Source: Cephalotus follicularis
Taxonomy: Eukaryota > Streptophyta > Magnoliopsida > Oxalidales > Cephalotaceae
Direction of reading: 5' to 3'
NCBI GenBank assembly: GCA_001972305.1
Contig: BDDD01005749.1
Location: forward strand, 1 to 64,000
DNA length: 64,000 nt
A program made the position numbers and the translations under genes. Positions 860 through 62,300 of the stretch are shown piece by piece. The first letter of the stretch is position 1. Each line of letters opens with the position of its first letter. A model generated the notes under the pieces. It saw only the letters and a program-made list of their open reading frames with translations. It searched no databases and was not told where the DNA came from.

Positions 860-1980
860 TGTTGACATTTATGTCTCAATCCTAAGTTTTGATGATAACA
901 TATTTGTGTTTAACAAAGTTTCTTGATGTGCAAGAAAACCATGAAATGCGCAAAACAACACAAGAATTCTGCAGATACAGGGCAAACCGTCGACGCTCAA
1001 GGATAAAGCGTCAGCGCTTTGAGAGGCAGTTGAGACAAGGAACAAAGCGTCTACCGGTGAAGCACTTTGGAAAGAGGAACAAACACTCAAACCGTCGACA
1101 CCCAAGATTCAAGCGTCTGCTGATTAAACCAGAGCGCCCAATTGGAATTCAATTTGGCCCAAGCATCGACGCCCAAAGCCTAAGCGTCAGCGCTTTGATC
1201 TGCCGGTCGACTCTTGGAGACAGAACGCCTGCGCTTTGACTCGACAATTTGAAATTGAGATCCCTAACAGTCACATAAGCGTCGACGCTTTAAAGGTGTC
1301 AGTCGACGCTTTCAACGCAGAACAGAATTCTGACAGAGTTTTAATGAGCCGTCTTTTATGTAACCACTTGGAAGACAATAGCCAATGGATCTCTAAGGCA
1401 AATATATATATATATATACCAAGAAGTTTTGAAGAGAAAAAAAAGTAGAACAACACAAGAGATATCAAACTACAAAAGAATTCAAAGAAATCATACAACA
1501 AGCACTCAAATTCAAAGCTTTTTTCAAAAGCTTTCATTTCATATCCTAGCCCATCTTTGTTCTCTATTATATTGAGCGAATTTATCTTGTAAAATTCAAC
1601 CTTGTGAGAGATTTAGATTGAAACATTATCTTATCCTTTTTTATTGTAATAGGGGAGTGAACCCTAAGAGAAATTGGGGAGTGAACCCAAGAATTGTAAG
1701 TGATTGAGTTCAATCACAAAGGTGTACCGAATAGCACCCGGAATTGTATTCGGAGATTAGTGGAAGCTCAAGGAGATCCTTGGGAAAAGTGGACGCAGGC
1801 AAGAGTTACGCCGAACCACTCTAAAATAGTGTTTGCGATCTCTCTAACTCCCTCTCTTTGAATTGTCATTTAAATTGCTATCGCTTGATTTTGTTGTTCA
1901 TTGTTTTTAAATTGCAAAAAGTTTAATTATTTTTTAGAAACTACAATTCACTCCCCCCCTTGTAGTTTATTCAGAAATCA
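860..1980 (+). repeat. 3' LTR of a Sirevirus-like Ty1/copia element
   Basis: The LTR begins TGTTGACAT directly after the polypurine box. Its first part (about 960-1320) is packed with GTCGAC-centred palindromes. A CCAAT box (1382-1386) and a TATA tract (1401-1419) follow. Its latter half (about 1640-1850) resembles the same part of the minus-strand copia LTR at 15769-16962 (sense-strand motifs gggagtgaaccc, gtggacg, gccgaaccact), so both belong to one lineage. The exact 3' end is unclear. A terminal ..CA is placed near 1980, but no inverted match to TGTTGAC is obvious, so the end may be eroded. The matching 5' LTR is outside the window. Confidence 0.7.
965..1420 (+). promoter_or_regulatory. 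LTR promoter region: GTCGAC palindrome array, CCAAT box and TATA tract
   Basis: About ten variants of gcgtcgacgc, gcgtcagcgc and related motifs occur between 985 and 1315, at irregular 20-50 base intervals. At 1277-1290 the sequence AAGCGTCGACGCTT is a perfect 14-base palindrome. A CCAAT motif at 1382 and an alternating TA tract at 1401-1419 follow in the order expected of a plant promoter. The array therefore sits in U3, upstream of the inferred transcription start. Promoter activity is inferred from motif order only. Confidence 0.55.
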
Positions 1981-3512
1981 TTTTTACAATCCTTTTTGGA
2001 AAATATATATAATTATATTTCCACACCACCATCATATACACATCGATGTCTTTCCTCAACGCGTCGATGTTCATTGCCCCAAAAGCGTCGAGGTTTATCT
2101 TCAAGGTCAGTGCTTGCAACAGTACCAATCGCGTCGACGTTTTCCTGTAGGCGTCGATGCCTTCAAGCTAAAACCCTTGGGCGTCGATGTCCATCACAAC
2201 GCATCGACGTTTAAGGTAGGAACCTTAACACGTCCTCACGTTATGTGCAAGACCTAATGCGCAGCTACCAAGGACGTTGATGCCTTCCATAGACATCAAT
2301 GTTTAAGTGGTACCAGGAGGTATCACCTCGACCAGACTCCATTTCAAAGAAGAATCCATCATCCATCCACGCATGTACTTCCCAGATACACCATTTATGG
2401 CGTAACACGCACAACGGGTGATTCATATGTATAATGAAATCATCAACCCATCAAAAATCCACAAGTCCAAAAGTAAACGTTGCAGTTCTGCAAATGTTTT
2501 AAATAGACATCGACGCTTAACTAAGACGTCAACGTCTATTGCCTCATCGCATAAAGACATCGATGCTTACCACAAAAGCATCGACATTTAAGAGTCCAAA
2601 ACACTGTCTCTTCCATACAACACCCAAACAGGAACATAAAATCCAATTATACATGCAATCTAACATGGGATTCACATAGAATTCAGCATGCATGCATAAT
2701 CCACTCAACCAGGTGTACATATTATCAAACAAACATCCAAATCAACTCCAAGGCAGGCATGCAATTCATGCATTTACTCATGGCAAAACATTAGCTTTCA
2801 ACTCAAAAGTGTACATATACTTCCCCTACCTCTGGTTTCAAGTTAGAAACCTAGAAGTCCACCACTTTGTGTTCCAAGAGTTGATCACAGCAGCCCCAGG
2901 TTCGTCCCTTGCTCCAAGCTATCAGCTCCAAGCTCCCAAGCTCCACTGGTTCAGCAATGGTGGAACTCCCTCTTCACACTCACTGTTTCTTTCTTTCCTC
3001 TCCTTAGATGTTTTAAACGAGCGAGGGGGGTGGGGTTGTTCTTATGCAGATGGCTCCCTCTCCCTCCTCCTCTCTGCACTAAACTAACACTCCCGTGTTC
3101 TCTCCCTCTTCCCCATCAAGTCCTGAATTCTAACTTTGTTTCCTTCTCTTCTTTTGAAGGTTGCATGCAAGCTAACACTTGTTACATCCTCCAACCTTCT
3201 TCAGTCATGCAGGTCAGGGGGGCTATTATGTATGCCCAACACGTCCCACTTAGTGTCCCTAGGTGCCTGCAACAAGTCCAGAATTGCCCCCCCTTTGCAC
3301 GTTATTCTGTCGGTTCATAATGTGACTGATATCCTTTTTAAAGACGTCGACATCTTCTTTAAACGTCAATGTCTTTTCCTATTTCGTACAAGGGCGTCGA
3401 TGCCTTCGTCTACATCGACATGCATGTGCATGCATTCATGTGCGCCCCTTGTTCCCATAGGCGTCGACGTCTTTACAAAGATGCTCACTGTTAAAAAGAA
3501 TGTTTTAAAATT
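1981..3512 (-). repeat. Truncated chromovirus LTR, probably 3' LTR of element #1
   Basis: The segment parallels the LTRs at 20020-22636 and 49821-51961. An internal palindrome array (about 2041-2580) is followed by a conserved core, including the phrase around 2815-2950 (cccctacctctggtttcaag) and CT-rich tracts. A second array (3337-3475) lies where the U3 array sits in the other copies. It lacks the distal part (cut at the copia LTR) and the first ~150 bases of the LTR (cut near 3512). No coding sequence is credible here; the small open frames lie in repeats. Confidence 0.6.
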
Positions 3513-4568: not shown

Positions 4569-7308
4569 ACAGTTGTAATACCCTGTTCGTTCGTAAACAT
4601 ATTTTTACGGATTCGTAAATGTTTTACGGATTTTATATGTGTTTTCGGACTTTTAATTCTGTTTAAATTTAAAGTCCGGTTTCCCTATGATCGGGTTTAT
4701 GTGAATTGTGCGGTATGATACCGGTCCGATATTTGGGTATGTTATGCTATGTTGGGTTTTATAAATTCTTATTTTAATCCAAAACTTATTTTATTAAAAA
4801 CAAATTATTATTCTTTTATTTTAATATTCCTTAATTCTTTTATTATTATTCTTTTGTCTTTAAAATCCATACTTCATTTTTCTATTATTCCTTTAATTTC
4901 TTTATTTCTTATTTTAGCATTTTCTTCTTCTTTTCTCCTACTACCTTCCACATTCTCCTTCTTTCCAGCAATTCCCACTATCAAATGCCATGTTAGAATC
5001 TCTCTTTTCCATTTCAAAATCCAGAAAAGTCTCATTCCATTTCCCTTTGTCAAATCTTGTCTCCCCCTTTATCATTTATTGAGTGCCATTGCCATTTTTA
5101 TATGATGCCACCATCCCTACTGAAAACAAATCCGAATCTGCCCAATTCTTGTGTACAAATCTGCTGTGTAATTGGTTCTTCAAATTCCAGAAGGTAATCT
5201 CAACCCTTAATTGATTCTTTTGGGTCAAATTCTCTTATTTTGCTATGTATGTCTAAAAATACCATGGTTTTGTATTTTCTTCTTTCTTGTTTCTGTTCAC
5301 AGCTGAATTGTGTGTTGTACTTGTGTTCTTCCTACTGTTTTCTGGGTTCTCTAACATCACTAAATGTTAGTTAATTCATCTCCTTTAATTATAGTTTTGT
5401 TTCAATGGCTTACTTTGAGTTTTTGTGCTCTTGGAGTCTTGAGTCTTTGATTCTTGCCTAAACATGTTGTCATTGTGTTAGTGATGTTATCTACACGTTT
5501 TATGCACCTATATATGTCACAAACTGAGTTCATAACTTCTGCTATCAATTAGAAACAAAATCTGGACATGTTCATGCAATATCTTCTTACTTCCTCTTCC
5601 AAATTAAATCATGGAAAGGTCGTTTCTTTGTCAAATTGATGTTTGTAAATCACCTACAAGTCATATATAATCATATGTTTGTGTCCATATGTCTTTGGTT
5701 TAATGTAGAAATCATTTGAACCTTTTTCAGTAGCAAATCGTCGGATTTCAAAATGTTCTGACGCCCCAAACAGCCGACTGTTTTAGTGGATAGTCGACTG
5801 GAATGGTTGCGTAGTCGACTGGATTGAAGAACACAGTCGACTACCTGCATTTTTGGGTTGCGTAGTCGACTGTCACATGATCCAGTCGACTGCCCAGACT
5901 CTCCAGTCGACTGGATACCTGTTCCAGGCGACTGGTATGCCCTGGAATGTGCTGTTTTCACCCGTTTTGATTCGTTTGACCCCCGAATCGATCCGAATGT
6001 TTCCCAAACATTTTTGTGAGTCTGTTTAATGCTTCTAATGTGTTTTAAACTGTTATACACATGATTTTTAATGTCTTTATAGATTGTTTAATTTCAAGTG
6101 GATTTCGTTTAAATTTGCCTATTCGTAAGTGCTTTGTAAGCGCATAAGGTACGGATTTTCTGTTCCTTGGCTATCCGACATCCAAACTGAAATTGTTTTG
6201 ATAAACATATTCGTTTATGAAATCAATGATGTTTCATGATTTTAATATGTTTTGAATTTAAGTTGGTTTGACATTGTATTGATTCCAACTTTATCTATAC
6301 GATATGTTATGGTACGAAATGTTAAGATACGATATGTTATGATATGTTATTGTATACTACTGTTGTGAACAGTATTTTTTGAATACGTTGGGTGAAAACA
6401 TATTTTATGTGTTTTAAGTTTATTTTGATAAATCAATTATTTTAATTTAAATACTGAGTATTGTACCCACCTATGGGGCGTATCCATAGGCACGTCGTGG
6501 GCCTGGCACGGGGACGTGACACTTCCGTAGAAGTGTGATTAGACTACGGCGTCTCTGAGTGTATGAACGAATCCCATGAGGTGGATTTGTGGATCCGCTA
6601 TGTGATAGAGGCGTATGAATCGATTCTAGTTTATGTGATCTGAGGTGAATTCAGATATGTGGTCCGAGGTGTGATCGGACATATGTGTATGAGAATTGAC
6701 TTGTGTAGTGCCGTACACTTCAATTCTAGTGGGCATGGGGAATTAGCGCCTCCCTTGCCAAATTTATGATATGTGATATGAATATGGCTCAGTATGTTTT
6801 TATGAACTATGATTTATGATTTTTTTGAAATGTTCCGAAATTGTTTCGAAAGATATGCAATCGATATTTGAATATGGTTTAACTGTTTTATTTGTTAAAG
6901 ATTTCTGTTACGTTATTATTGAAATATTAACGTTTTTAAATTACCGTTTACTATTTTATTTCCCTTATCCGTACTGAGATTTGCTCAGCCGCATTTTTGT
7001 TTTCCATGCGGCAGGTTTTCAGGAGCAGCGGGGGAAAGTGTGATTGAGTGATGACCACCTCTTGTGATAGGATCCCTAGGAGTGTGATCCTTATGTTCTA
7101 TGTTTAGTGGTCAAACTTTGATTTTTATGTTTCGGTTTTTCCGCAACCACTTAATATGTTAAATGTTAAGTTTTAAATGTTTTCATATGACTGCCACGTT
7201 TTCGGCTGTCTTTGGCTAATAAAAGTAAACCTTGTGATTTGTTAAGTTATGTTATATATATGATACGACCCTGTGACAACTCCCGCCGTCCGGGGGTGTT
7301 ACAACAGT
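4569..7308. other. Target-site duplication acagt around the solo LTR
   Basis: The five bases before 4574 and the five after 7303 are identical (acagt), as expected of a Ty3/gypsy integrase product. Both copies being intact suggests a comparatively recent insertion within this nest. Confidence 0.9.
4574..7303 (+). repeat. Complete solo LTR (Ty3/gypsy type), 2730 bp, target duplication acagt
   Basis: The LTR starts TGTAATACCC and ends GGGGTGTTACA. It is flanked by the identical 5-mer acagt at 4569-4573 and 7304-7308. No polypurine tract, PBS or pol adjoins it, so it is a solo LTR left by LTR-LTR recombination. Its last third matches, in reverse, the solo LTR at 59359-62402 (shared ctggcacggggacgtgacac and atcccatgaggtggat blocks), which makes the two one family. 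A CAGTCGACTG-type array occupies about 5758-5940. The 4749-5105 open frame is pyrimidine-rich LTR sequence, not a gene. Confidence 0.9.
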
Positions 7309-7593
7309 AGTCTATTCCAAGAATAAAAATATAACAAATAACTCATTAAAAACCACACATTTTTATGCTAAACAAAAGTCATCGATGCGTTTAGCCCAAA
7401 ACTGCACCGTTTTGCCTCCAATTGCATCTTTTAGAATTTCTTTAACATCTCCATCATTCCTTGTTCCAAAATCTAACCTTTTAAATTTTGAAAAGCATCA
7501 TTTAAGTCAAAATTTATGCCATTCTCATTAACTTAATAATAATATTTCAATAAAATTGAAATATTACATCGCGCAAAAATCTTGGGCGTTACA
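7309..7593 (-). repeat. Fragment of a gypsy LTR start (TGTAACGCCC on minus)
   Basis: Read on the minus strand, 7593 begins TGTAACGCCC, a start resembling those of the LTRs at 33529 and 51961. It abuts the integrase remnant directly, with no polypurine tract, so it marks an insertion or deletion junction within element #1. AT-rich, no coding sequence. Confidence 0.45.
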
Positions 7594-8960: not shown

Positions 8961-9007
8961 AATAAACCTCTGATAATAGCCGACCAATCCCAAAAAACTG
9001 TGAACCT

Positions 9008-9835: not shown

Positions 9836-9849
9836 ATAAGCTAGATATC

Positions 9850-12947: not shown

Positions 12948-13512
12948 GCTGGCAGAAAGACGTCGATGTCTTCCAAAAAGGCGTCGATGTCTTTTGTGAT
13001 TTTCCCGTTGAAAGTGCGCCAACTAGCCGTTCCATATTTCCCGGGTCTTGTCCATTTAAAAAGACGTCGATATCTTTTTAAAGGCATCGATGTCATTTCT
13101 GGGAAATCTCCAGGCATTTGAATGTATGAACATCACGTCGACTTCTTCTTCCTGGGTCGATGTCTTTTCTTGTTTTGGCAGGTTGTCTTTGAAAGACGTC
13201 GATGTCTTATGAAAGGGATCAACTTCTTTTGTACGGACGTCGACTTCTTTGACTGTATGGATCGATGTCTTCAATTGTAATTTTACACAGTAGCTTCTGG
13301 CACTAAAGACATCGATGTCTTTGTTATAGGGTCGACTTCTTTTGTACGGACGTCGACTTCTTTTCTGGAAGGTCAATGTCTTTTGTCCTGCAGAAGATTT
13401 TTTCTTTGACAGCAAACTTTCTAGTGTCTTGCACATTAAGCAAACAAGTTAAATGCATTTTTGTAATCATTAAAACTTATGATTGAGACTCATCATCAAT
13501 AATGCCCCAACA
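12948..13512 (-). repeat. Truncated 3' LTR of the gag-only copia element
   Basis: Minus-strand start TGTTGGGGC at 13512. It is dense in gtcgacttctttt and gatgtcttt motifs, including a perfect 18-base palindrome, AAAGACATCGATGTCTTT, at 13305-13322. The LTR lacks everything after the ctggcagaaag point (12948), including TATA, R and U5. Confidence 0.85.
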
Positions 13513-14063: not shown

Positions 14064-15713
14064 TTAAGCTTTTGGTACCCGTTTGAATTTGGGTCCTTGC
14101 AAGTTAGTCACAAACGTTCCTTTCGGAATCCAAATCTTTCTAGTTTTACCATAGCAAAGATTATTTATAACAAAGCAGGAGGTAGAAATATGTCCTATTC
14201 TACCACAATAATTGCAAACAATTTGAGGCTCTACTTTCTTAACAAAGAAATTCTTAAAATGTTTGACATTTTTCATTTGTTCATAGCCTAGACCGGCTTT
14301 GTCAAAAACACATCTTTGTAATCCTAACAAATTATCCAATTTATCACTACTATTAGAAAAAGTAGAAAAGGATTTCTTTAAAGCATCAATTTCAATTTTC
14401 AGTTTTTCATTTTCTTCCATAAAATCATTTGACAATTTTGAAGAAACATTTAAAATGTCAATTTCATTCACATAGAAGCTATTTTTATCTTGAAGAGAAT
14501 CAATTTCATTCAAATATTTGCTATTCTCATTCTTTAAATCATCAATTTCTTTAGACATGAAAATTGCATTTTTCTTTAGATTCTTATTTTTCAAACACAC
14601 ATTTTCATATTCAACATATAATTTCTCATAGGTATTTTGCAACTCATCAAAAGTGAAATTTACCTCATTTTCTTCTTCATCCTCAATTGCCATGTAAGCA
14701 ATGTGTGCAACTTCTTCATCGCTTTCCTCTTCGGAGGTTGAGGGATCGCTATCCGACCATGTGGCTACCATTGCTTTCTTCTTCTAGAAGTTTTCATTTT
14801 TTTTCTTGAATGGTTCTTTCTTTTTGAGATTTGGACACTCGTTTTTGAAGTGGCTGGGCTTGTTGCATTCATAGCATGTTGGTTCTTCCTCATCTTGGAG
14901 AAATTCCTTTTTGAAAGCCTTTTTCCCTTTTCGATTTTTGAGAAACCTTTTGAATTGGGAAGAGATAAGTGCAACATCTCCATCTTCATCACTTTCACTA
15001 TCTTCCTTTGAAGCTTTAAAAGCGATTGCCTTTTTCTTCTTGACTTCCACATTTTCATGATTCTTCATTGTTGTCTCATGTGTCATCAAGGAACCAAGTA
15101 GTTGTTCTAGTGGGAGAGTAGAAAGATCTTTAGCTTCCTCAATGGCCGTAACCTTTGGGGTCCAATTTTTCGGCAAGCATCTCAAGATTTTTCTAACAAG
15201 TTCTTGGTTAGAATATGATTTTCCAAGATTCTTAAGAGAATTAATAATAGTAGTAAATCGAGAAAACATATCACTAATACACTCATTATCATGCATTACA
15301 AATAATTCATACTCATGTACAAGCATGCTAATTTTCGATTCCTTTACTTGATTAGTGCCTTCGTAAGTGATTTCTAATAAATCCCACATTTCTTTTGCCG
15401 AATCACAAGAAGATATCCGATTAAATTCATTAGGCCCAACGGCACAAAATAAAACATGTTTGGCTTTAGAATTTAATTGGAGCATCCTAAAGTCATTATC
15501 ATTATATTCATTTTCGGGCTTAGGAGAAACTACTCCTTCTACAGTCTTTGTGGGCATTGTAGGGCCATTAACAATTATATGCCACAATTGATAGTCTAGG
15601 GATTGTAGGAATATGGTCATTCTAGTCTTCCAAAAACTATAGTTGATTCCATCAAAAAATGGAGGTCTAGTAATGGAGGAACCTTCTAATCCTATGTTCA
15701 TATGGTTTGCCAT
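14064..15713 (-). pseudogene. gag: Sirevirus-like Gag, two halves separated by one in-frame amber codon
   Basis: The ATG at 15713 opens a 309-residue frame with an N-terminal copia Gag (UBN2-type) region, RPPFFDGINYSFWKTRM, which carries the conserved F/Y-W pattern. A CCHC knuckle, CYECNKPSHFKNEC, lies near residues 280-295. A TAG at 14786-14784 stops it. The same frame resumes immediately and runs a further ~239 residues to 14064, starting with an acidic Ser/Glu-rich segment. A long coiled coil (KNKNLKKNAIF.. NEIDSLQDKN) and a second CCHC (CNYCGRIGHISTSC) follow. The frame then ends before where protease would begin. The stop could be a simple nonsense mutation or could separate two products. 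The surviving frame downstream argues that decay is slight. Confidence 0.85.
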
Positions 15714-15754
15714 GGATCTTTATATCTCTAACAATTAAGAATACTGAGATAACC

Positions 15755-15766
15755 GCTCTGATACCA
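15755..15766 (-). other. Primer binding site (tRNA-iMet type)
   Basis: Minus strand TGGTATCAGAGC, complementary to the 3' end of plant initiator tRNA-Met. It lies two bases inside the end of the 5' LTR (GTTTCCAACA). This fixes both orientation and the LTR boundary. Confidence 0.9.
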
Positions 15767-15768: not shown

Positions 15769-16962
15769 TGTTGGAAACTATGGAAACCTTCAAACTTAAC
15801 AAAATAATTTGTTAGCGGAAATAAAAAATTAAGCAATGAACGTAAACACTCACACAAGCACAATCTAATAATAACAATTAAGGAGTTAAGGGATAGAGAG
15901 TGCAAACGAATTTATAGTGGTTCGGCAAAACCGTGCCTACGTCCACTTTCTCAAGAACCCCTTGAGATTCCACTAGCCACCACTAGCAACCTTTGATTTT
16001 CGGCTTCCGGGTGCAAATCAAAGAAAACCACCTTACACTTGATTTTGGGTTCCAGGTGAAAATCAATCAAACACCTTACAAGGGTTCACTCCCCTCTTTT
16101 ACAATGAATGAATTGTAAAGATAATATATGTTTACAAGTAACCTCTCACAGGTTGGATATAAAAGTGTAAACAGATTTTAAGCTTTGGGTATGAAAGTGT
16201 TTATCAAAAGATTGATGTTCTTCCCTTTGTAGATATGCAAGTTGAGCTTTTGTGATTGAATGTTCAAATGTTGTTCCTTAGTCACTTGAGCTTGTTTCTT
16301 GGCTTGTATTTATAGCTTTCTTCAGATTATAGCCGTTGTAAAAGTCTTGTGCATATTGGATATAACAATTTGTTTATGCAGCTTTGTTTTAATCTCTGCT
16401 GGCAGAAAGACGTGGATGTCTTCCAAAAAGGCGTCGATGTCTTTTGTGATTTTCCCATTGAAAGTACGCCAACTAGCCGTTCCATGTTTCCCGGGTCTTG
16501 TCCATTTAAAAAGACGTCGATGTCTTTTTAAAGGCATCGATGTCATTTCTGGGAAATCTCCAGGCATTTGAATGTATGAACATCACGCCGACTTCTTCTT
16601 CTTGGGTCGATGTCTTTTCTGGTTTTGGCAGGTTGTCTTTGAAAGACGTCGATGTCTTATGAAAGGGATCGACTTCTTTTGTACGGACTTCGACTTCTTT
16701 GACTGTATGGATCGATGTCTTCAATTGCAATTTTACATAGTAGCTTCTGGCACTAAAGACGTCGATGTCTTTGTAATAGGGTCGACTTCTTTTGTACGGA
16801 CGTCGACTTCTTTTCTGGAAGGTCAATGTCTTTTGTCCTGCAGAAGATTTTTGCTTTGACAACAAACTTTCTAGTGTCTTGCACATTAAGCAAACATGTT
16901 AAATGCATTTTTGTAATCATTAAAACTTATGATTGAGACTCATCATCAATAATGTCCCAACA
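15769..16962 (-). repeat. Complete 5' LTR of the gag-only copia element (1194 bp)
   Basis: Starts TGTTGGGAC at 16962 and ends CCAACA at 15769 on the minus strand. U3 holds the palindrome array (about 16400-16840), with a TATA box and U5 after it. The U5 contains the gtggacgtaggcacgg and gccgaaccacta block shared with the LTR at 860-1980. Confidence 0.9.
16307..16314 (-). promoter_or_regulatory. TATA box of the copia LTR
   Basis: The minus strand reads GCTATAAATACAAGCC, a good plant TATA match. It lies ~85 bases downstream of the last palindrome of the array (16411-16443), so the array is in promoter-proximal U3. Activity is inferred. Confidence 0.65.

Positions 16963-17010: not shown

Positions 17011-17055
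<45 letters not shown>
17011..17055. repeat. Compound (CA)n-(TA)n microsatellite
   Basis: Sixteen CA units followed by a TA tract, inside the chromovirus LTR. A related short TA tract recurs at the matching point of the second tandem unit (17446-17457). Confidence 0.95.
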
Positions 17056-17837
17056 TTATATATACCAATACATGAGCAACCATGCCAAGTGGCTACATCA
17101 ACACAATCCATCAATCATGTCACAAAGGACCAATCAATCAATCCATACGTACGAAGAGCGTCGCCATCTCCTGGCCCCAACGTCGTACTCCTACTCCAGC
17201 CCCGTCTCCGGCTGACTCGAAGCAGTTCAACAATCCATTTTACTTGAACGGCGGCTAAGTAATCAGTGTGGGTGTCCCTAGGCATCTTCTGGCACCTAGA
17301 GCCTAAACCCGCCATTAGCCGTCAATGGAATACTCCGCCACGCAACTAATACGGCAACAATCCCAATCCCAATCCAGCAATCAATCCGTTTCAAGTAGTT
17401 TATAAGTTATAAATTACTTGAATACTTACATTTGTTCAAAATGTGTATATATATATACCAATAAATGAGCAACCATGCCAAGTGGCTACATCAACACAAT
17501 CCATCAATCATTTCACAAAGGACCAATCAATCAATCCATATGTACGAAGAGCGTCGCCATCTACTGGCCCTGACGTCGTACTCCTACTCCAGCCCCATCT
17601 CCGGCCGACTCAAAGCAGTTCAACAATCCATGTTACTTGCACGACGACTAAGTAATCAGTGTGGGTGTCCCTAGGCATCTTCTGGCACCTAGAGCCCAAA
17701 CCCGCCATTAGCCGTCAATGGAAAACTCTGTCACGCGACTAATACGGCAACAATCCCAATCACAATCCAGCAATCAATCCGTTTCAAATAGTTTATAAGT
17801 TATAAATTACTTGAATACTTACATTTGTTCAAAATGT
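17050..17837. repeat. Two-copy tandem duplication, unit about 393 bp
   Basis: The segment from ccaatacatgagcaacc (17065) to the end of ttgttcaaaatgt (~17440) recurs at an offset of 393 bases (17458 to 17838). Only scattered substitutions separate the two. The other chromovirus LTRs here have a single copy or a different repeat at this point, so it arose inside this copy. Confidence 0.9.
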
Positions 17838-35068: not shown

Positions 35069-35070
35069 AT

Positions 35071-35081
35071 TGGTATCAGAG
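35071..35081 (+). other. PBS of Cassandra (tRNA-iMet type)
   Basis: TGGTATCAGAG two bases after the left LTR end, on the plus strand. It sets the orientation of the TRIM, opposite to host element A. Confidence 0.9.
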
Positions 35082-35138
35082 ACGAACCCCCTCCAGTAGA
35101 TGTGGTTCGGGGATGAACCAGGCGGAAGCTGGTGGGCC

Positions 35139-44396: not shown

Positions 44397-45100
44397 TCAT
44401 TCCCCAAACAATCTCAAAACACAATTCGCACCGTTCCCTGAGGCATCACTATACACCACGAAACCATCATTGCTCTCAGGTAAAACCATGATCGGCGCAG
44501 ATATCAGACGATGTTTTAACTCCTGGAAGCTCCCTTTACCACTGTCATCTTTTACATCTCGTCTTTTTGCGTCAATCGAGTTAAAGGTGTGGTAATCCAT
44601 AAAAATTCCTCTACAAAGCGGCGATAGTAACCCGCTAAGCCTAAGAAACCACGGACTATTATCACGTTTATCGGCCATCCCCAATCCTTCACTACTTCTA
44701 TACTTGTTAGGTTCACAGACGAACCAGCACTGGTCAACGTGAACAAGGAAACTACCTCCAATAACAAAACTCCATAGTTGCTGAATTTAGCATACCAATT
44801 GCGATCTCGCAAGACCTGCCATGTTTAGTACAACCACTCTCCATGGCATTCCACAAGCATTGAATGCACTAACACATCATCGAAGGAGACTACGGTGATA
44901 TGTTAAAGATATGGATTACACACCCCTTCCATAAAGTTTGTGAATGTAGTAAGGAATTGATCATCCCCTTTAATGACACTACGATCCATCCACAAGGTCC
45001 ATATCGTGACTGGGAGATTGTCGATGATGACACATATCCAAATGGATCCATCTCAGTAATCACTTTCTAACTCATCCATCGGCAACACTAGGAGGTTTGC
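44397..45100 (-). pseudogene. RNase H start and RT end of element C
   Basis: Two overlapping frames (44812-44552, 44684-44397) read FLGLAGYYRRFVEEFLWITT and PLTRLTQKDEM, the RT thumb/connection. FQELKHRLISAPIMVLPESN and the RNase H start VVYSDASGNGANCVL follow, with the catalytic Asp intact. Upstream RT palm is frameshifted; the region near 44890 may be the FIDD motif, but it is not convincing. Confidence 0.75.
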
Positions 45101-46655: not shown

Positions 46656-46669
46656 GGCTTTGATACCAA
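46656..46669 (-). other. PBS of element C
   Basis: Minus TTGGTATCAAAGCC, one mismatch from the usual iMet-type TTGGTATCAGAGCC. It lies two bases from the LTR end GGCGCGATA. Confidence 0.85.
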
Positions 46670-46671: not shown

Positions 46672-49600
46672 TATCGCGCCCCGATCCGCGGGAGTAAACC
46701 CCCATGATCCGACGTGTGATATTCATTCTCTTCAGTCATTCAATCATATATAATCATGCTCCAAAAAGTGCTACAAATTTAAAACTTTAAATCAAAGTCA
46801 TATAAGCGGAAGAATCATATATACATCAGCGGAATTAATCAATCCAAATAAAAACTAACTCACAAATCTCCCGAAATTTGGGGCATGAAGTATTCGTCTA
46901 TAGGACTATACCCCTTGTAAAGGAAAACTCAATTTATATCTCAACACTCCCGAAGGAGGAAACAACAATTTATATACATATACGGGCTCAGCCCTCAGCA
47001 ATCACAACTAAACCAGTATCAGATCATTCTAATGCCTCAAATGATGGGCTTGTCCCTGTTTAATACATCAATACACATATTATAAGCACTGCCACATGTT
47101 GGTAGGTCGATAGCTGAAATAAAACATCTCTAATATATCTTTAGATCTGTCTCTTATACATAATAAGTCTAACATATTAGTACAGTTCATTTATAACTCG
47201 AGGCCCTTTTTACAACACATATAAACAAACTCATATCCTTTACCATAAGTAAGATCATGTACAATAGGGCAAATCAAAATATGCTATAAAGAATCCATTC
47301 GTCTCAGCCTGTCTCATTTAATACAATTCATATATAAGCAACTCCATATACAATTGGCTGACAAAATCTGTTATAGAAAACCTGTCCTTAACAGCTTACC
47401 TCGTTGCAATCCATCACCTGTGCCTGAGCCTGACCCATTCCGCACACAGGGGAAATGGGTCAGCGACATAATGTCGTGTAGGTATACTATGCTATGCCTG
47501 CAACAGTATAATGGTGTATGTGTGCAACAGTATATCAATGTATGTCATGTAGTGCATCAACATAATGGTGATATGCGTGCAATAGTATAATATATATATG
47601 TATGGTATGTCATGTGCACAAATGACAATTGCGGACGACGTCAATATACCAACTGTCCCTAAGCAGTGGTATACCGGGCTGGTCCTAATCACATAAAAGG
47701 CCATAGGCCTGCAGACAATCCATATAACAATCAATATCAATCATAGGGACAACCAGTCCATAGGTTTGAGTACTACTCTGCCCCTCCGGCCCGAGATAGT
47801 ACTACCACCGACTACCTACCCTTTTGAGGTCGTAACTGAGTGGGGAAGAGATAACGCTGATCATATCATGGCTAAGCCGTAAAAACGGTCAGAACCCGTA
47901 GTATGGTGGTAAAGCCGTAAAAACGGTCGGAACCCATTGGCGCCAGGAACCTCCAATGATGATGTGATCGAACACCCATAATCCTCGCGATGGAAATGTA
48001 GGTTATGGATGGGTTATCTCATAGGTCTCAAACAATAATTTATATCATAGTCGTACTTTGTAATACTCGTAACCCATAACATATATTTGTTTAAAGGATA
48101 GGGACCATTTCATAAAGGATCTCATAAGATCCACATCCGCAAATCATATAAAGATCATTTCGTAATCATAAGTCATTTTTCATATCCAATGGCCATTTCA
48201 TGTTCATAATCCATTTTGTAATAAATTTTTCATATATCATTTGGTTGGTCTCTATCGAAGTTATAATGAATGGAAAGGGAGTCCAAATGGGAGTATTCGC
48301 GCCCAGATGTCCGAATGGAAGTACCTGACCATTTTGAAATCCATAAAACAATGGAGAAGAAGTCCAAATAAGATATTCGCATCTCGATATCCTAATGGAA
48401 CTATCCTGACCATTTTGAAAACCATTTAGAAACCATTTGCGTAAAACCCTTTTATTGAGTACTTTCCTTAAAACTTCACTTTGAACATCGATTTAGAAAT
48501 CAAAAGTGATACATTAGGATTTCCATAGGTTACAAAGCCTTAGGGATATAATTATTTAGAATGCATGAATGTAAAGCAAGCAATAGTATAACCTACCTCT
48601 TAGCAACTGAGCTCGTAAAGCTCGGAAATCCTCTATCCTTGATTATTTTGCTTATCCTCGATCGTTTCCTTTATCCTGCATGCACAACACATTTTTGTTA
48701 CACTCTATGCACGGAAACCAAGAACAGCCATCATCGGAGCTTCGGCTAGTTTCCGACCAACTCATTCAGCTCTGGCGAAACCCAAAAACTGGTTCCACAT
48801 TGGATGATATGTTCAAAACCATCGGAGGCTCACCGTGACTCATCGTGAAACGCGTTATCACGGCCGGCAGTGAGTCAACTCGCCGGTCAACCACAGCTTT
48901 GGTCACCACCCAAAATCGCCACACAATCATCAATTCTACGCGTCATTGCCAGAGACTCGTCGTGACTCGCCGTGAAACGCGCTGTCACGGCCGGCCAGTG
49001 AGTTCAACTCACTGAGTCGACTCGCCGGTCGTCCTCAACTCCGGCCACCACCATAAAATGCATCACAACCACCAGACAAACACGTTTAAGCCCTTAACTC
49101 GCCGAGACTCGGTGCACATTGCATGGTCTCAGGCAGCCGTGAGTCGACTCAGTTGACACATCCCGACCGATTCTGGCCAAACCACGCCTCACAGGTGGTC
49201 AAAATGAATAGAGCGGGCCTTCTACACCATAACCCATGCCATCCGCGACGCTAACGACGTTGGAAAACGCACGCCAACGCGCGACAGTGATGGGGAGAAC
49301 GGAGGAAAAGAAAGAAAAGAAGAGGAAGAGGAAGGTTATCTGCCATGGAGGAACCGCCGTGCTGCTCACCGCTTCGCTGGCTGGCGTCTCTCTCTTTCTT
49401 CTCCGCCGCGTGGCTCTCTCTCCCCCTCTCTCTTGCTTTCTCTCCTGATATCTCTCTCTCTCGTCTGCCTTCTTCTACAACACACGGGTGCCTCATGCGC
49501 CCGTGTGTATATTTTCCCCCCTATTCAATTTTTGCTTCCTTTCTTGGTATTTACCAGCCAAAATACTAAGGCATGGGTCCCGTTTAATCCGAAATTTGCG

Positions 49601-49820
49601 ATATTAATTATCCGAACGGGTACAAAAATAATCGCAATAAAAATGCGAACATAGGGACTTATTGTCGCGCATTAAAAACGGGCTTTATTAATCATTTCGG
49701 GCCTTACGATCTGCGGCTCCAATAAGCGATGCTTTTTATTAATTCGAGCTCCCTCGGCTCAATACGGTCATACACTGTGCCAATATTAAAATAATTATTT
49801 ATAAAATTTGAGGCCTTACA
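46672..49820 (-). repeat. 5' LTR of element C (3149 bp), array deleted
   Basis: Matches 39598-43280 closely outside a clean gap at 48546/48547, where 519 bases including the whole GTCGAC array are missing. The GAGTCGACTC cluster (48860-49150) is kept but slightly shorter. The hairpin pair is at 47877-47888 and 47914-47925. Confidence 0.92.
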
Positions 49821-51961
49821 TGAAATCCCTAGTTACTTACACTCCGTGTTTAGTAACCAATGTGGAATTCCCATCACAATCCAATTCAGTAAATCCATTC
49901 CAAGTAGATTATAAGCCATAAAATACTTGAAAATGTTACATTTATTTAAAATGTATAACAGGCATTTTTGAGCAATTCTCAATCCTTCAAAAATACTCAT
50001 TTTCGTAAAACGAATCCCTAGTTACATTACACTCTGTGATTAGTAACCTATGGAATTCCCATGTCAATCCATTTCTAGAAATCCATTTCCAAGTCGTTTG
50101 AAAGTTATAAACACTTGAATCAATACATTTTCATTGTATAGAAAACCTCTTGAAACAATTCACAATCTTTGGAAAATTACTTTCCCCAGGCATTCGAAAA
50201 TATACATTTTCGTACAAAATAATGATTTATTCAAAATCATGCAGGTATTTCTAAAATGATAAAACACTTTTAGAAATCAAACACATTACGATCCACAGTT
50301 CAATATGCAATGCAAGAATATGCTCATATGCACCTAGGCTCATTCCGGGCACGATCGATGATATCTAAGCGAAGTCGTAAAAAATAGCAGCATAAGCGTC
50401 GATGTTTATCTTCTAGGCGTCGATGCTTATGTCCTCTAAGCGTAGACACTCGACTCTATAGCATAAGCACTTTCGTCAGTAACATTCACGTTAACAATTA
50501 TCCTTGGCGTCGACGCTTCAACCTAAGGATCCTTGAGCGTCGGCGCTTATCACATGGGGTCGACGCTTTGAGGTAGGACCTCAGGTGTCAACAAAGTCAT
50601 TTATTCACATTATTCGAATAGGGCGTTGATGCTTTCTCTAAGCGTCGACGTTTGTCATCAACAAGTATGCATTCTCAAAACCAAGCGTCGACGTGGTCTA
50701 TAGGCGTTGACGCTTTATCGTCAAACCATTATACATTTTTCGCATAATATGTAAAAGTGTCGACGCTTATCCTTTAAGTGTCGACAGTTAAAGAAAACCA
50801 GGTCGTCTTGTTCAACGCGTCACAAAACCAGGGGCAATTCAAGCAATCCAAGCATGAAATCTGATCCAATATCATACCATAGCATAGCATGCATGTAGGT
50901 TAACATATCCCAGGAACCATAATAGTAGTAATGTTCTTAACAATCCACAAAATCCATGCAAACATCAATGAACAAACACTATCCTTGAACTCGAAATTGC
51001 ATCTATAATTTCCCCTACCTTTGGTTCCAATTTAGGAACCCGAAAGTCCACTTCTTTAAGCTTTATGTCTAGTAATTTGAGGCCCCAGGTTCAGCCACAA
51101 CAGCTCCAGTTCAAGTTCACTCCAAGTTCAAAGCTTGTCCAACAATGGAGGTTCAACCTGTCTTTTTCTCTCGGTGTTTCCTCCCTGTTTTCCCTCAATT
51201 CTTTTTTGTTCTTTACTTGATTTCTCAACAGGAGGCTGAAGGAGATGAGGAACATTTATGCAGGTCACAATTTCTTCCTCCTTCTCTCTAGCCCGTTTGC
51301 ATGCATGCCTGCTGTCCAACTCTTTCCCTCACTATTTTTTCATTTCTCTTCACTTTTGTAGGTCACATGTGCTTAGGACACCACACTCTCTTGCATGCAA
51401 CATCTTAGAGCACGTTGAAGTGACATGTGCCATTCTCTCACTCTCCCAATAGTTGCATGCACACATTTCTAACCTCCCTCTTTCACTTGGTGCATGCACA
51501 CACATGTGTCACACCCACTATTCAACTCAGTCACTGCAAACTCAGGAGCTGTGGTGCATGCCCAACACGTTTTGTTGGGCGTGTAATGGAGCCTGAAAGA
51601 TGCCCTTCTCCTACCTCCATCACGTTCTCCTAACAGTATTTTAGGCATGTCTGATCTCGCCATCAAGCGTCTTTGGTTATCTCATGGGCATCGATGGTTC
51701 ACCCAGTGCATGCATTGGCATCGACTCTATGTGCACTTACATATAAACGCACGTTGCATCCTTTGGGCATCGACGCTTACTTCTTTAGGCGTCGACGCTT
51801 TGGCCAATTTCCAGTGTTTTAAATTATATTTAACACCTTTACCATCCTATACTCAAATTGGCAACATTATAAATTGCAAAAATCCTTCTTTTCTCATTAA
51901 TTTATGATAAGTTACAATGAGAATCATCATAGTAAATCAAATGAAAATCCCGGGCGTTACA

Positions 51962-52112
51962 ACAGCTCTAGCCCTTCCACATCCCCGCCTTCCGTCCATT
52001 TCGGTTCCTATAAGGAAAGATGTGATTAGTCATCTTAAGGAAACAATTGTTAATTACCAAGGAAGTTATCCAAGCTAAGTATATAATATTCGTATATGCT
52101 CTGATACCACTA
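51962..52112 (-). other. PBS, leader and gag start of chromovirus #2
   Basis: Minus PBS TGGTATCAGAGC at 52109-52098 adjoins the LTR end GGTGTGATCA. About 100 bases of leader follow, then an ATG at 51999 opening MDGRRGCGRARA. The arginine-rich start is typical of plant gypsy Gag. The frame is cut at 51961 by LTR B, and the capsid region resumes at 38756. Confidence 0.75.
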
Positions 52113-55100
52113 TGATCACACCTCGTTCTCACAACATAGACCCAGAGGTCATGGCAATCAACATATATTCAACTTATATAAAAATACAAGGAATTTACAA
52201 CTTTCTCATCACATCTTTTCATTGCGGAAGCATATAATCATGAGCTAAATTAAATACGTAACATGCAGCCCATACTACATGTTACAATAACATAACCTCA
52301 TCACTGTTAACTGCCCTCAAAACGGAGCATGAACTAATCCAGTCAAATACATTGATCCATTCTTAACAATTTCCAACAATACAAAACCTGTTGCACAATA
52401 CCCAAATTAACATTTCCTTAAAGAAAATACAACTTAAACTCTTTACTTCGTTTCCCCACGCTCAACGATGTTAATCCCCTGCATTTAGCTGAAATTGATA
52501 TGGTTAGCCGAATGCACTGGCTAAGTAGAGAAAATATAAATACACTTTTGGGTCAACGATAATGTGTGACATGAAATGAATGCATTCATGATGCAATACA
52601 TAATATATCACAACACGTATATATATGTGTGTGTGTGTGTGCCAATAGGTAAGCGGCCATGCATAGTAGCTACAACCATACAATCCCTCAACCAAGTCAA
52701 ACAGACCCATCAATCGAATCCACATATCGATGTTAACCGTCCAAGGCTAGGAAAGCACTTATAGCTAACCGGCACGTAAGCTAGGAAGAACATCAATCCG
52801 GAGATGCTAACCATCCAAGGCTAGGAAAGCACACATAGTTATCCTGCACGTAGGCTGGGAAAAGCACCTTATCAACCTATATGACACTAACTGTCCAAGG
52901 CTAGGAAATCACGTAGCTAACCGGCACGTAGGTTGGGAAAGCTCACCCAATCCAATCAATCAATCAACTCAGTCAATTATGTTTTATAGCGACCATGACC
53001 CAAGTCCGCTAATTGCTCAAAGCGTAGTTCGAGGATCGGTTGCGTTACATGGGGTGAATCGTTATATCCTTTAGCACTCTTGTCTAAATCTACTTTACAT
53101 CATAAACCCATGCATTTCAACATAATACATAGCCTTGAATTTCAACTTTGAACATTCTCATCTTATCTAAAGATGTTACAAACCATAACATTCTCTTGCA
53201 TTTACATAGGATCATCATATAATACAACGGAAAAACATAGTCTTATTACATGTCAAAACATTTATACAAACATCATTCCATAGTACATTTCCTTTACAAA
53301 ACTTCTTCCTAAAAGCTCCCTCTAAAGCTCGCATTCTCCATTCAATCCTTTGCTGAAAAATTTTTATTTGAAAACAAACATCGAAAGGAATGAGCTCAAA
53401 ATAGCTCAGTAAGGTTTTGATTGTAAAATTTATTTTATCATATCACTTTTCTTGTTAAACTCATAACTAGAATATTTCGTAAAACATATCTCTTTTCTAG
53501 TCAAAATTCATAACTAGAACATTTCATAAAAACATAACATAGAAGTCATAAAACCTTAATGAACCCTTTTACACCTCTTCACCGGAGCATTGTGCACTCC
53601 CCGACTACTATCCTCACATCAAATGCATGCTCGTGAGCATCTCACTCCGCAACATTAATCCATCTCAGATTCATACCCCTTGGATCGCAATCCAAGGGTG
53701 GTTCATTTCATCATTTCATAAAACATTTCTTAATACTTTCAGTGATCAGCTCAAAGCATTCATAAACATCATTGTATAGCATCTCTTTCAAAATTCATAA
53801 ACATTTTTCTTCATTTCAGTAATTAACTTAAATGCATTCATAAAACATTTTTTCATAGCATTTCTAAATCTAGAATTTCATATAGAAATAAGCACTTTCA
53901 AGGAAAACTTAAAACATAAACATTAAAGTAGACATCTTCAAGAATTCATAAAGCTCAAGTTCATAAAAATTGGTTGAGAATCGAATATGTTATGAGTTTT
54001 TAAAGTGGCTGGTTCCATATGAAAATAGGACATGAGCAGTAAAATGAATCATGGATTCTCATCAAGAACTGGACAGAATTACAAGAAGCATAAAGCATAT
54101 CAGTTAGAGTAGACATCTGAAAGTTTCTAAAATATTAAACCGTTCAAAATTTCATCAAGAAATGAGCAAGATATGAATAAAACTATCTTCTAGATAATTT
54201 GAAGTAAAACATGGGATAGTTTCGTGAAAGTGGGTATAGAATTTCCTTACTTTGCTTTAGATTTCCTTTTTCTCCTTCTCCTTTTGAATTCTCCACTTCA
54301 CTCTCAGCAGAAGCACTTGCCTTCTCAGCCAAAAGGAATGAATTCAGGTCCCTAATGCCCATAAATAGCTTGATTAATTAGGGAGTAAGTCTCCTTCTCC
54401 CTCTCTCTCTCTCTCTCTCATGAGTCATCTCTCAAATTACCCATGGGCCTTAAATCCTCCAATAAAATGGTGACACTTAGCATCTAAACATAAATTATAT
54501 GGCCTCCTTTCACCCTAGTCTGACACTTGTCCCGTAATTAATAAATTTAACTCACAAAAGGATAAAAAGTTAGATTTTGTAGCTGATCTGATGGTTTGGG
54601 CATCGACGCTTATGCATGGCGTTGACGTCTATGTCCTTGTGCGTTAACTTCAATGGTTCTCTGCCTTAACATCCGATGCTATAGGCCAAAAAGTGCACTC
54701 ATTCGCATTGACGTCTAAGCATGACATTGACGCTATGAAGGTTTCACGTTAACGTCTATATCCACTATCCGAAATTGCACTTCTTGGTGTTGACGTCTTT
54801 CACAAAGGCGTTGACGCGTATATGCAATCCCCAGCACGTCGACAATAAAAACATCACATTGACGAGAATCATCTTGAAATGCCCAGAACATGTGCTCAAA
54901 CCCAGCACGTTGACGTATCTAACATAGGCGTTGACGCCAAAAAGACTGTTCTGCATATTTTGCCTATTTTGATCCTACCATTTTGCTTGTATGTTTTGCT
55001 TAAGCATTCCTTCACATCAAAGAACAAGTTATGTTCTTTCAAAGTCCAGATTACAAGGCAAACACCATATTCCTCAGTATATAACAAACACATTTCCAGT

Positions 55101-59353: not shown

Positions 59354-59358
59354 GTAAT

Positions 59359-62300
59359 TGTAACACCCCCCGAACGGAGGGAGTCGTTACGGTTCCTAAT
59401 CTGAGACTAAGCATAACCGATCTTATAACATAGCTTGATCTTATTCCTTTTTATCATTTTAATTAACTTAGCATATATTCCTATTTAACTATAAATCAAG
59501 GTTTGCCTTTATTCTTACTTATCAAATTATTAACTAGTCTTTTATTCAAATTGTGTGATGGTCTAAACATAACACCTATAATCCAAGACATAGTCTGAAA
59601 ACTTTATTCATAATCCGAAAACTTAAACATAAACCTAAAGTTTAAACATAATTCTAAGTCATAACTGAAAGGCATAACATAGTGCAATTAAGGGTCTAAC
59701 ATGACCATAAAATAACTAAGCATAAACGGTTCCATCTCCTAGGTGTTCCTTATCATAGGTGACATCTCGCTCATCACACATTGCCCGAATGCTGTCCCAG
59801 AATACTTGCCGCATGGAAACAAAAACGCGGCTGAGCAAACCTCAGTACGGATATAGAATCATAAAACATAAAACGATAATTTAAAAGATAGAAAATACCT
59901 GAATCTTTAAATATCATATACCTTATGCATAAAATAACTTAATATGATTTTTAAAAGCAAAAGTACATAGTCACACAATCAATTCAAAACGAATATCTAA
60001 TTTTCAAAGCGTTATTCAATTTCAAAACATAATCCAAGTTCAAAACAGTATCCAAATCAAACGTTCAAATTACTTTAACGAAAGCCAATTAAAGTTTTTA
60101 AAATGAAAACCTATCCGATTCCAAAATCTCATCATAGAGATCCAAACATATAACAGAGACTTATCCGATTCCGAAATCTCATTACCGAGATCCAAAGCGC
60201 ATATACATATGCGAAGATGCAAGGGGTTTGCAAGGCCCACATGCCAAACGGAAAGACGTGTACGGCACTACACAATCAATCCCCAAAATCTGAATCCTTA
60301 ACATAACAAAAACTAGAGTATACCCATACGCCTCTATCACAAAATCGGATCCATAAATCCACCTCATGGGATTCATTCAAACAAAGACAGAAGTTGTAGT
60401 CAAATGACACCGCTACGGAAGTGTCACGTCCCCGTGCCAGGCCGACGACGTGTCTATGGTACCTCCATAGGTAGGAAATATCTCTATATATATCCTTTTT
60501 TCAAAAACATTGCTTTATTTCTAAAAACAATTTAAAAACGTAAACACCTTTTCTAAACATTTTCTGGACATAGCAAAAATCATTACATAGCATCAACTCA
60601 TTTATTTTTCCACTATAAAGAGATGATCGTATCATATTTCTTAACATATCATAGCATAAGAATAAAGTCAAGAAAATGTCAACTGACTTTTATTTTCAAA
60701 ATCGTATCGAATCATAAAAACATAGCCAAGTTCATAAAACAACAGGAATCACATATGAATTCATTTCAGTAAAACCGAAGGAATAAGCAAAGAACAGAAA
60801 ATCCGTACTTTAATCATAAAAAGTAAAACGGGACAGTTTCTATAAAATCAGATAGCCAAAGAACAGAAAATCCGAACGTTATTCATAGAGCAAAACTATC
60901 TTTTTACCATAATAAAAACAGTAGGAGGGTATCAAGGAACGAAACATCCGTACCTTAAGCGATCACAACAAAGATAGATGAATTGATCAACAATTTTAAA
61001 AGTCCCTCGAAGCACCAAAATCTAAAAGATGCAATATCATTCATATAAGCATTCAAGTATCACTTCCAAACATCAAACAATAATTTAATAGTGTTTAAAA
61101 CGAACTCCAAATCATTAGACGGACAAACGGATTACAAAACTTAAAACCAGAAAATTCACTGGACAATTCCAGTTGACTGTAAATGGGTCCAGTCGACTAC
61201 TCACAGGGTGGCAGTTGACTACACAACATCGGCAGCTGACTACTCAAACTGGGTTGAATCCAGTCGACTGTGATAGGGGTCCAGTTGACTGTGCATGGCA
61301 AAACAGTCAACTGTTTCAATAGGCAGTCGACTGTTCTGGGCGACAGAACAGCCAAAATCTAACAATCCTATGCCAATTTTATGTCAAAATCGTTTTTATC
61401 ACTTTTCCAGATAACCTTAAACACTTACCTAGGTCTTATGTGACTTAACAGTTACATTTAAACATCTAGAATCAAAAGTTCATGCAATGGGTGATCTTTC
61501 TTTAAGGAGAAGCAATTTCAATTTATTGCATGCATGCTTATATTATCAAGTTTTCTGTTATTAATCATTATCCTTAATCAAATCCAGTATATATCATCCA
61601 CCTAATGCATGTTGATAGGTCCAGTAGCCATTGTTGAAGAAATCAAACAAACCACACTAGCAACCAACATGGACAAGCAACCAACACCCAAGTTAAACCA
61701 TAACAATAGAGAAACAAACCTGATATGATGAACAAAGAAGCACAAAACAGTCTCCACACTTGCAGGTTTGGCTACCAGGAGATAGATAAATAATAGAGGC
61801 ACAAACAATGCATAATAACATACATATACAATATGGGAAAGGCAATTTAGGTCATGGTAAGGCAAAAAGGAAATCAATATCTGTTATAATGTGGAAATAG
61901 GGCATAATTTTGGGATTGAGGGAGAGGAAGAAGGAAAGAAATCAGTTTTGTGAGAGGGAAAGGGAAGAAAAACGGGAGAGAGAGGGAAGAAAATAGGAAA
62001 TAAAAATAAATTACCATAATACTCTTATTTTGCCATGTTAATATTAAAAACAAATTTATAATACAAACAATTGATTTTATCTTTCCCATAATCCCTATTT
62101 CAATAATTTATCAAAAGTCCAAAGATGGTATTTATTTAGCCTAAGTCATAAAAACCCAAAAATTATAATATCATATATCTCATAAATTAAAATAGACCGA
62201 AATAATAATAAGAAAAACTGATATGATATTTATACAAAATACAATTCAATTAATTTTACTTATTCATGTACATAGTCCAACCAATATTCAACAGCCCAAA

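Follow-up and report, generated by a model that had tools for sequence, protein, structure and literature searches.

The long terminal repeats (LTRs) of Sirevirus (copia) and Ty3/gypsy elements in the genome of Cephalotus follicularis carry arrays of short palindromes, and what the two superfamilies are seen to share is the palindromic site and a step of 20 to 22 bp between sites. We describe these arrays in a 64-kb stretch of contig BDDD01005749.1 (the whole stretch, referred to as the window), in a 200-kb sample spread evenly over 20 contigs (10 kb from each), in five further stretches and in six 3-kb loci around exact palindromes; whole-genome counts cover the assembly of 1.577 Gb in 9,746 contigs. 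Palindrome arrays before the TATA box are known from Sireviruses; apparently new here are Ty3/gypsy LTRs with the same sites and step, and this pattern is strong. The enrichment, the step, the occurrence in both superfamilies, the lack of detected similarity outside the units and the swap of array blocks are directly supported. On balance, we lean towards the view that the arrays are enhancers in the U3 part of the LTR which would be bound by one or more dimeric host factors, used by Sireviruses and Ty3/gypsy elements, with blocks exchanged among gypsy-type LTRs.

Enrichment and spacing of the palindromes

A TCGA flanked by 5 or more symmetric pairs out of 7 is called here a well-formed unit (4 of 7 at a looser cut), and three arm classes are distinguished by labels coined for this work, namely, T (AAAGAC[A/G]), G (AAAGCG), and C (CCAG/AACAG). 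The window contains 254 TCGA tetranucleotides against a mean of 189.65 in shuffled sequence, a count reached by none of 100 shuffles, and 64 of the 254 fall within 11 intervals (3,196 bp) listed in an earlier reading of the window (the sequence-only reading), for which 12.7 are expected from length. Perfect TCGA-centred palindromes of at least 10 bp number 19 in the window against 3.1 (10 shuffles). In the 200-kb sample, there are 69 of 10 bp or more, 24 of 12 bp or more, and 12 of 14 bp or more, against 10.1, 1.7, and 0.5 (10 shuffles). With the AT/TA microsatellite centres set aside, which also show a large excess, the excess at 12 bp or more is by far the largest for TCGA. Other palindromic centres show a small excess at most, for instance, GTAC (4 against 0.5 at 14 bp) and TGCA (9 against 4.3 at 12 bp), and ACGT, CCGG, GCGC, and CGCG centres are not enriched beyond small numbers in the window and the 200-kb sample. 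Across the genome, the exact T-class 18-mer AAAGACATCGATGTCTTT has 9,899 copies (8 for the reversed string), the G-class 16-mer AAAGCGTCGACGCTTT has 3,552 (5 reversed), and the C-class 14-mer AACAGTCGACTGTT has 11,812 (25 reversed). The arrays are genome-wide and real. Chance or CpG richness as their source is ruled out by the shuffles and by the comparison with other centres. Equal palindrome counts in shuffled sequence, which would have undone the sequence-only reading, were found neither in the window nor in the 200-kb sample nor in the LTR tests described below. Its list of dense TCGA arrays stood for 8 of the 11 intervals, each with at least one unit of 5 or more symmetric pairs, and did not stand for 27610-27845, 54590-54930, and 61160-61340, which have none.

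Distances between TCGA centres in the window and the sample peak at 20 to 22 bp (110 pairs, versus 10 pairs at 23 to 26 bp together), with a further peak at 41 to 43 bp, a weaker one at 62 to 64 bp, and a second series at 48 to 51, 69 to 72, and 90 to 92 bp; in the 200-kb sample without the window, the pairs at 20 to 22 and at 23 to 26 bp number 78 and 7. When 16 palindromic centres were compared, well-formed units lying 20 to 22 bp apart were found for TCGA (13 pairs) and for the microsatellite centres ATAT and TATA; the remaining 13 centres gave no such pairs, and at the looser cut AATT gave one. No peak at 20 to 22 bp was seen for CCGG, GCGC, or GATC in the window and the sample, and a slight peak for ACGT at 21 and 22 bp (9 and 7 pairs) may come from GACGTC inside the T arms. 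A genome-wide search for T-class halves with a free linker of 0 to 25 bases between them gave 6,280 places, versus 8. Among the matches listed (50 distinct of 6,280, many from few families), the steps are 19 (27 cases), 20 (3), 21 (2), 22 (15), 42 (2), and 43 bp (1), and none is 18 or 23 to 41 bp.

Steps of 19 to 22 bp account for 48 of the 76 spacings of at most 60 bp in Sirevirus LTRs and for 45 of 95 in gypsy-type LTRs, in a set of 8 and 12 LTR sequences, respectively, that were all chosen because arrays are present; it includes near copies (L002 and L003), and six members (L001, L004, L010, L021, E5, and 4612-7310) are typed from LTR similarity only. The step is present in all three arm classes, and because these differ in symmetric length, it is not mere close packing. 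The symmetry around clustered TCGA reaches seven bases per side, partly because arm classes are mixed. In the C2611 LTRs (L026/L015), TCGA triplets stand at 10-bp steps near the LTR start, at -1931/-1921/-1911 and -2551/-2541/-2531 from the primer binding site (PBS), and are a one-turn variant of the lattice.

Arrays in Sirevirus and gypsy-type LTRs

Unit counts were compared with 1,000 shuffles per LTR at the cut of at least 5 of 7 pairs, some LTR limits outside the window being approximate, and G-class arms (AAGCG/CGCTT, with any centre allowed between them) were compared with 200 shuffles. One Sirevirus lies on the minus strand at 12.9-17 kb. Its 5' LTR (15769-16962; T class; array 16434-16806) has 5 units and its 3' LTR (12948-13512, cut; T class; array 12963-13356), 96.8% identical to 16398-16962, has 6, against 0.07 in each case, and none of the shuffles matched either count. 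The roughly 2.3 kb between the LTRs bear Sirevirus marks, namely, three polypurine tracts (PPTs) with an inverted repeat and a copia gag gene, and an LTR/PBS junction that may also be of the Sirevirus type. The PPT-like tracts (at most 3 mismatches) end at 13745, 13650, and 13512; the junction, TTTCCAACAAG followed by TGGTATCAGAGC (15755-15766, minus strand), was judged by eye; and gag (Retrotran_gag_2, 14784-15719, minus strand; PF14223, E 2.9e-31) has 1,028 relatives, with identity of up to 96% among the matches listed (120 of 1,028). Directly behind gag, a 239-amino-acid open frame (14064-14783, minus strand) contains a CCHC knuckle and has no Pfam match. A second Sirevirus LTR (860-1700, plus strand; G class; 1700 is a test cut) has a single PPT, AAAAAGGGGGAGATTGTTG, at its start, with an inverted repeat around it, and these marks, together with an array of the repeated-motif type judged by its G arms, place it among the Sireviruses. 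Its array (985-1306, plus strand) has AAGCG/CGCTT arms and 7 TCGA; the LTR contains 5 G-arm pairs against 0.31 (none of 200 shuffles) and only 1 well-formed TCGA unit, a count reached in 44 of 1,000 shuffles. As the sequence-only reading had it, the arrays in these two copia LTRs lie upstream of TATA, a Sirevirus trait: the former ends about 120 bp before TATAAATA (at 16314) and the latter about 100 bp before the TA run TATATATA (about 1403).

Outside the window, L014 is identified as gypsy by gag, protease, and reverse transcriptase matches in that order behind the PBS (PF03732, PF08284, and PF00078) and L006 by protease, reverse transcriptase, and RNase H (PF08284, PF00078, and PF17917), while the C2611 LTRs are called gypsy from zinc knuckles behind the PBS and an L014-type junction, not from reverse transcriptase. 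The gypsy LTR ends and PBS look Tekay-like, which would suggest the Tekay/chromovirus subgroup. The L014 LTR has nine well-formed units against 0.11 in shuffles, and in 4 of 5 gypsy-type LTRs outside the window the unit count was unmatched in 1,000 shuffles, L006 being significant only at the looser cut. The gypsy LTR/PBS junction GGGGTGTGACANNNTGGTATCAGAGCAT occurs in 4,927 genomic copies (2,485 and 2,442 by strand) versus 5 for a reversed control and offers a handle for an LTR census.

In the window, the gypsy element E3 (minus strand) has a reverse transcriptase piece at 29163-29498 (PF00078, E 7.2e-15) and G-class arrays in both LTRs. The 3' LTR (25462-28144; array 27618-27841, with AAGCG/CGCTT arms and a centre that is mostly not TCGA) contains 8 G-arm pairs against 0.76, and the 5' LTR (33531-37026, limits approximate; PBS at 33524; array 36507-36729) contains 8 against 0.81, with 1 of the 8 outside the array; none of 200 shuffles reached either number. 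In these arrays, 4 of 6 and 4 of 7 steps measure 20 to 22 bp, and the array ends about 105 bp upstream of a TATA-like box (TATAAATA at 36410). Inside the internal part of E3, four TCGA units like AAAGACGTCGACTCCTTT (32361-32450, no strand assigned) form two pairs 21 bp apart and are probably a nested piece. The element E4 (minus strand), with a gypsy-type RNase H piece at 44397-44786 (PF17919, E 2.6e-6, narrowly short of the curated cut-off), carries a G-class array (41560-41736) in its 3' LTR (39598-43281), where 2 well-formed units were reached by 12 of 1,000 shuffles. Its 5' LTR (46672-49821) borders the PBS TGGTATCAAAGC at 46668. The 519-bp segment that holds the 3' array (41474-41991) is missing from the 5' LTR at 48546, and a deletion after insertion is likely, because the join shows homology of only a base or so.

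Further arrays in the window were typed without coding sequence. A C-class LTR of gypsy-like appearance at 4612-7310 (plus strand), typed only by its end, GGGGGTGTTACA, and with related pieces in L024, L027, L005, and L021, contains six TCGA with C-class arms at 5794-5910 (no strand assigned) in steps of 21, 22, 29, 20, and 21 bp. Two G-class arrays, likewise without assigned strand, lie at 21170-21545 and 50395-50780, the former related in sequence to 50198-51038 and the latter with 9 TCGA, 7 of which have at least 4 of 7 symmetric pairs; G-arm pairs number 13 against 0.61 in 20026-22500 and 11 against 0.56 in 50198-52984 (none of 200 shuffles in both cases). In none of 6 tests were TCGA units significantly enriched in the internal regions of elements, and G arms are raised in 1 of 3 such regions (the Sirevirus gag part, with 2 against 0.22, a count equalled in 1 of 200 shuffles). 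The nested LTR sequence of the window also holds tandem duplications at 17053-17837 and 34662-35545, with steps of 393 and 477 bp and copies about 94% alike.

The two superfamilies share exact sites. Two copies of the 18-mer AAAGACATCGACGTCTTT lie in the Sirevirus 5' LTR and four in the L014 gypsy LTR. The four loci fetched by AAAGACATCGATGTCTTT comprise two Sireviruses with a PPT and two that match gypsy-type LTRs; the two fetched by the G-class 16-mer comprise one with a 239-bp match to E3 and one that matches no reference. When units were masked, T-class copia and gypsy LTRs (6 and 5 sequences) gave 0 high-scoring segment pairs at E<=0.05, versus 762 unmasked and 0 in a reversed control, and G-class LTRs gave 0 versus 11; because masking strips most of the short linkers, this speaks mainly for flanks and longer linkers. 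The view that copia and gypsy LTRs are unalike outside their arrays was thus borne out for the LTRs compared. A single satellite inserted in every LTR, which the sequence-only reading had named as an outcome that would overturn it, is ruled out, since the masked copia and gypsy LTRs compared share nothing detectable. Its proposal of a shared module, a host factor site, or convergence was right in that a common cis-element exists (the exact 18-mer and a step of 19 to 22 bp); the three options are not cleanly separable. An attempt to group arrays through flanking similarity was dropped, as 44 of 45 fell into one component owing to nesting.

Sharing between copia and gypsy is seen at the level of units only, and block exchange is visible among gypsy-type LTRs. 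L015d and L011 are alike at the start (93.4% over 122 bp) and downstream (89.9% over 774 bp), but the intervening stretch of about 1.2 kb shows no similarity at E<=1e-4 and carries C-class arrays in one LTR and G/T-like ones in its counterpart. The L015d block resembles L012 (72.2%) and L021 (71.4%), in both cases over about 450 bp, and the arrays of these two LTRs in that part are C class as well. Judging from these alignments, array-bearing U3 blocks appear to have been swapped between related gypsy-type LTRs.

How the arrays may be read

The first counts of centres took in loci selected for palindromes and were therefore repeated on 314 kb without those loci. In this set, exact T arms enclose TCGA in 13 of 13 cases and T arms with at most 2 mismatches in 51 of 61 (TTGA/TCAA in 6 and other centres in 4). 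Within T-class sites, the self-complementary centre varies least, and deamination is the commonest deviation. A TCGA centre throughout all arrays, as the sequence-only reading had described, holds only for this class; one exact centre for every class is ruled out, as the centres of the G and C classes vary.

The constant self-complementary T centre, the symmetric arms, and the two-turn step suggest dimers side by side on duplex DNA, and an enhancer position fits, because the arrays of the two Sirevirus LTRs and of E3 end about 100 to 120 bp before a TATA-like box. From these features we infer binding, a dimeric reader, enhancer activity, and a host origin of the factor. Rows of dyad-symmetric sites of about 14 to 18 bp, mostly CpG-centred (TCGA in the T class and looser elsewhere), would be read on duplex DNA by a dimeric host factor or by related factors that differ in arm preference. 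The step of 20 to 22 bp would align adjacent dimers along roughly one face of the helix, so that cooperative binding would be possible, and bound arrays would drive the LTR promoter downstream. Recombination would exchange the U3 array block between gypsy-type LTRs and so switch the arm class while keeping the step. Arms with AAAG resemble DOF sites, and decay of AGTCGACT gives AGTTGACT, which contains the WRKY W-box. At 61160-61340, decay of TCGA to TTGA converts C-class sites to TTGACT, a WRKY W-box, and dead arrays could by this route become stress-response sites.

Several observations weigh against this proposal. In the 314-kb set, exact G arms enclose TCGA in only 2 of 12 cases (TCAG in 3 and CTGC in 3) and exact AACAG/CTGTT arms in 4 of 13 (TCGG/CCGA in 6), and E3 lacks any good TCGA unit (0, not significant), its arms being kept around centres such as GCAG. 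Several of the listed intervals are mostly TTGA/TCAA, that is, CpG-decayed, such as 54590-54930 (2 TCGA and 10 TTGA/TCAA) and the C-class array at 61160-61340 (3 and 7), neither with an assigned strand. The 5' LTR of E4 has no array (0 well-formed units; 10 of 1,000 shuffles at the looser cut). Distances of 28 to 30, 43, and 48 to 51 bp break a simple lattice. The L014 and C2611 LTRs carry an additional array further inside, on the downstream side of the first TATA-like box and well removed from it, a position that does not fit a purely upstream role. Arrays are also far from universal upstream of PBS matches, of which 16 of 18 were assigned to a superfamily by eye (L008 and window position 35071 were omitted). 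In this by-eye reading, the 10 gypsy anchors comprise 4 with a clear array, 3 with a moderate or decayed one, and 3 that are nearly empty; one of the last has only 577 bp upstream, and the others were scanned over at most 3.6 kb, possibly beyond the LTR. Among the 6 copia anchors, only the one in the window has a clear array within the same distance, and the 7 units of L010 seem to be placed in a different LTR. Of 6 PPT-like anchors, 3 belong to a single element in the window. No TCGA unit follows the two anchors in C352, where G arms number 2 against 0.14 (3 of 200 shuffles).

A possible, if rather doubtful, alternative is that DNA segments bearing the arrays passed from one superfamily of LTRs to the other, by template switching or gene conversion, and that the motif common to copia and gypsy reflects common descent and not convergence on one factor. 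The block exchange between gypsy-type LTRs speaks for this, and the best copia-gypsy match (48 bp, 87.5 to 89.6%) extends beyond the palindromes into TTTCTGGGAAAT. However, this 12-base tail, common to copia and L014, was chosen post hoc and was rejected as proof of transfer, and the masked comparisons left no copia-gypsy similarity in either arm class, albeit with power lowered by the loss of linkers.

It is less likely that the palindromes act in RNA, through hairpins or pairing of units, for the production of small interfering RNA, packaging, or genome dimerisation. Paired arms with a free centre also suit a hairpin, and the varied centres between conserved G-class arms, resembling stem and loop, leave room for such a role. 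In addition, 396 nucleotides of the Sirevirus array fold as RNA better than shuffled sequence (z -3.56), as would be expected from sets of palindromes, and the palindromes of maize Sireviruses are small-RNA hotspots according to the portions of PMC5311732 and PMC10760457 drawn on here. Against this, the centre of the T class, which would be a free loop in a hairpin, is its most constant part, the step of 20 to 22 bp fits B-DNA, and the arrays of both Sirevirus LTRs lie upstream of TATA, which puts them beyond the transcript at its 5' end.

We consider it improbable that the arrays are recognised by a sequence-specific protein which the transposons themselves encode and which counters silencing in the manner of the VANC proteins of VANDAL elements. 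VANC targets, as covered by the part of PMC5735166 used here, are similar in that short motifs stand in rows and are replaced between related elements, and the frame behind the Sirevirus gag has no Pfam match, but it contains a CCHC knuckle and may be the remainder of gag. Moreover, the Cephalotus motif serves unrelated superfamilies, whereas the VANC21 motif is, in that part of PMC5735166, rare outside its own family and of single orientation. The least credible explanation is a functionless artefact of mutation or tandem repetition (satellite fragments, CpG islands, or slippage palindromes). Units do amplify in tandem (internal repeats 13135-13382 and 16642-16832), but the other CpG-containing or palindromic centres named above (ACGT, CCGG, GCGC, and CGCG) lack comparable enrichment and three arm classes keep one step.

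Returning to arrays read by dimeric host factors, we put forward tentatively, as an extension that is possible at best, that the two superfamilies compete for one dimeric host factor family by means of a shared grammar of sites (CpG dyad, arm class, and two-turn step) and exchange U3 cassettes with one another, which would retune the arm class and make the array an exchangeable address. The factor may also read the methylated central CpG, in which case the silencing mark of the host would help recruitment.

Relation to known systems and significance

Bousios et al. (2010; PMC2829016, drawn on in part, as are the other papers cited here) described palindromic repeated motifs (RM boxes) in the LTRs of 13 Sireviruses, where they precede the TATA box in 8 to 32 copies per element; 12 of the 13 RM have a CGG-CCG signature, and the RM were termed Sirevirus specific and absent from the classic copia elements compared. 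The Cephalotus arrays resemble these in that palindromic boxes stand before TATA, and 2 of the 13 motifs in the portion available are TCGA centred (Vitis CGGTCGACCG and Tnd-1 ACAATCGATTGT). They differ from the RM described there in arm classes without CGG-CCG, in palindromes that also occur in Ty3/gypsy elements, in the step of 20 to 22 bp, and in the switching of arm class. The signature has no match in the arms or centres of the Sireviruses described here, but it is not strictly defining, because Tnd-1 lacks it too in the table of PMC2829016.

In maize, the Sirevirus palindrome CACCGGACNNNGTCCGGTG is also found in 10.7% of Helitron structured regions (PMC10760457), which nesting could explain. 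Like the Cephalotus palindromes, it is arrayed in the cis-region of the LTR and reported in a second superfamily; unlike them, it has a different sequence, the second superfamily is Helitron, and the consulted portion of the maize account does not mention a step. Dense short motifs in noncoding DNA with turnover between related elements are likewise a feature of the VANC targets of Arabidopsis VANDAL elements (PMC5735166), but in the part of that work used here those are directly oriented, belong to a DNA transposon, and have an element-encoded reader, whereas the Cephalotus sites are palindromes in the LTRs of two superfamilies. In searches of the open-licence literature, mostly at the level of listings, we found no report of palindrome arrays in Ty3/gypsy LTRs or of the step of 20 to 22 bp.

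Palindrome arrays have so far been treated as a peculiarity of Sireviruses. If it is true that gypsy elements use the same sites and step, plant LTRs in general may have a regulatory code in such arrays, and the reader of the arrays would become findable, as three exact sites of 14 to 18 bases alone exceed 25,000 genomic copies. Block swapping would account for changes of promoter identity in LTR lineages, and the decay of CpG centres may record methylation.

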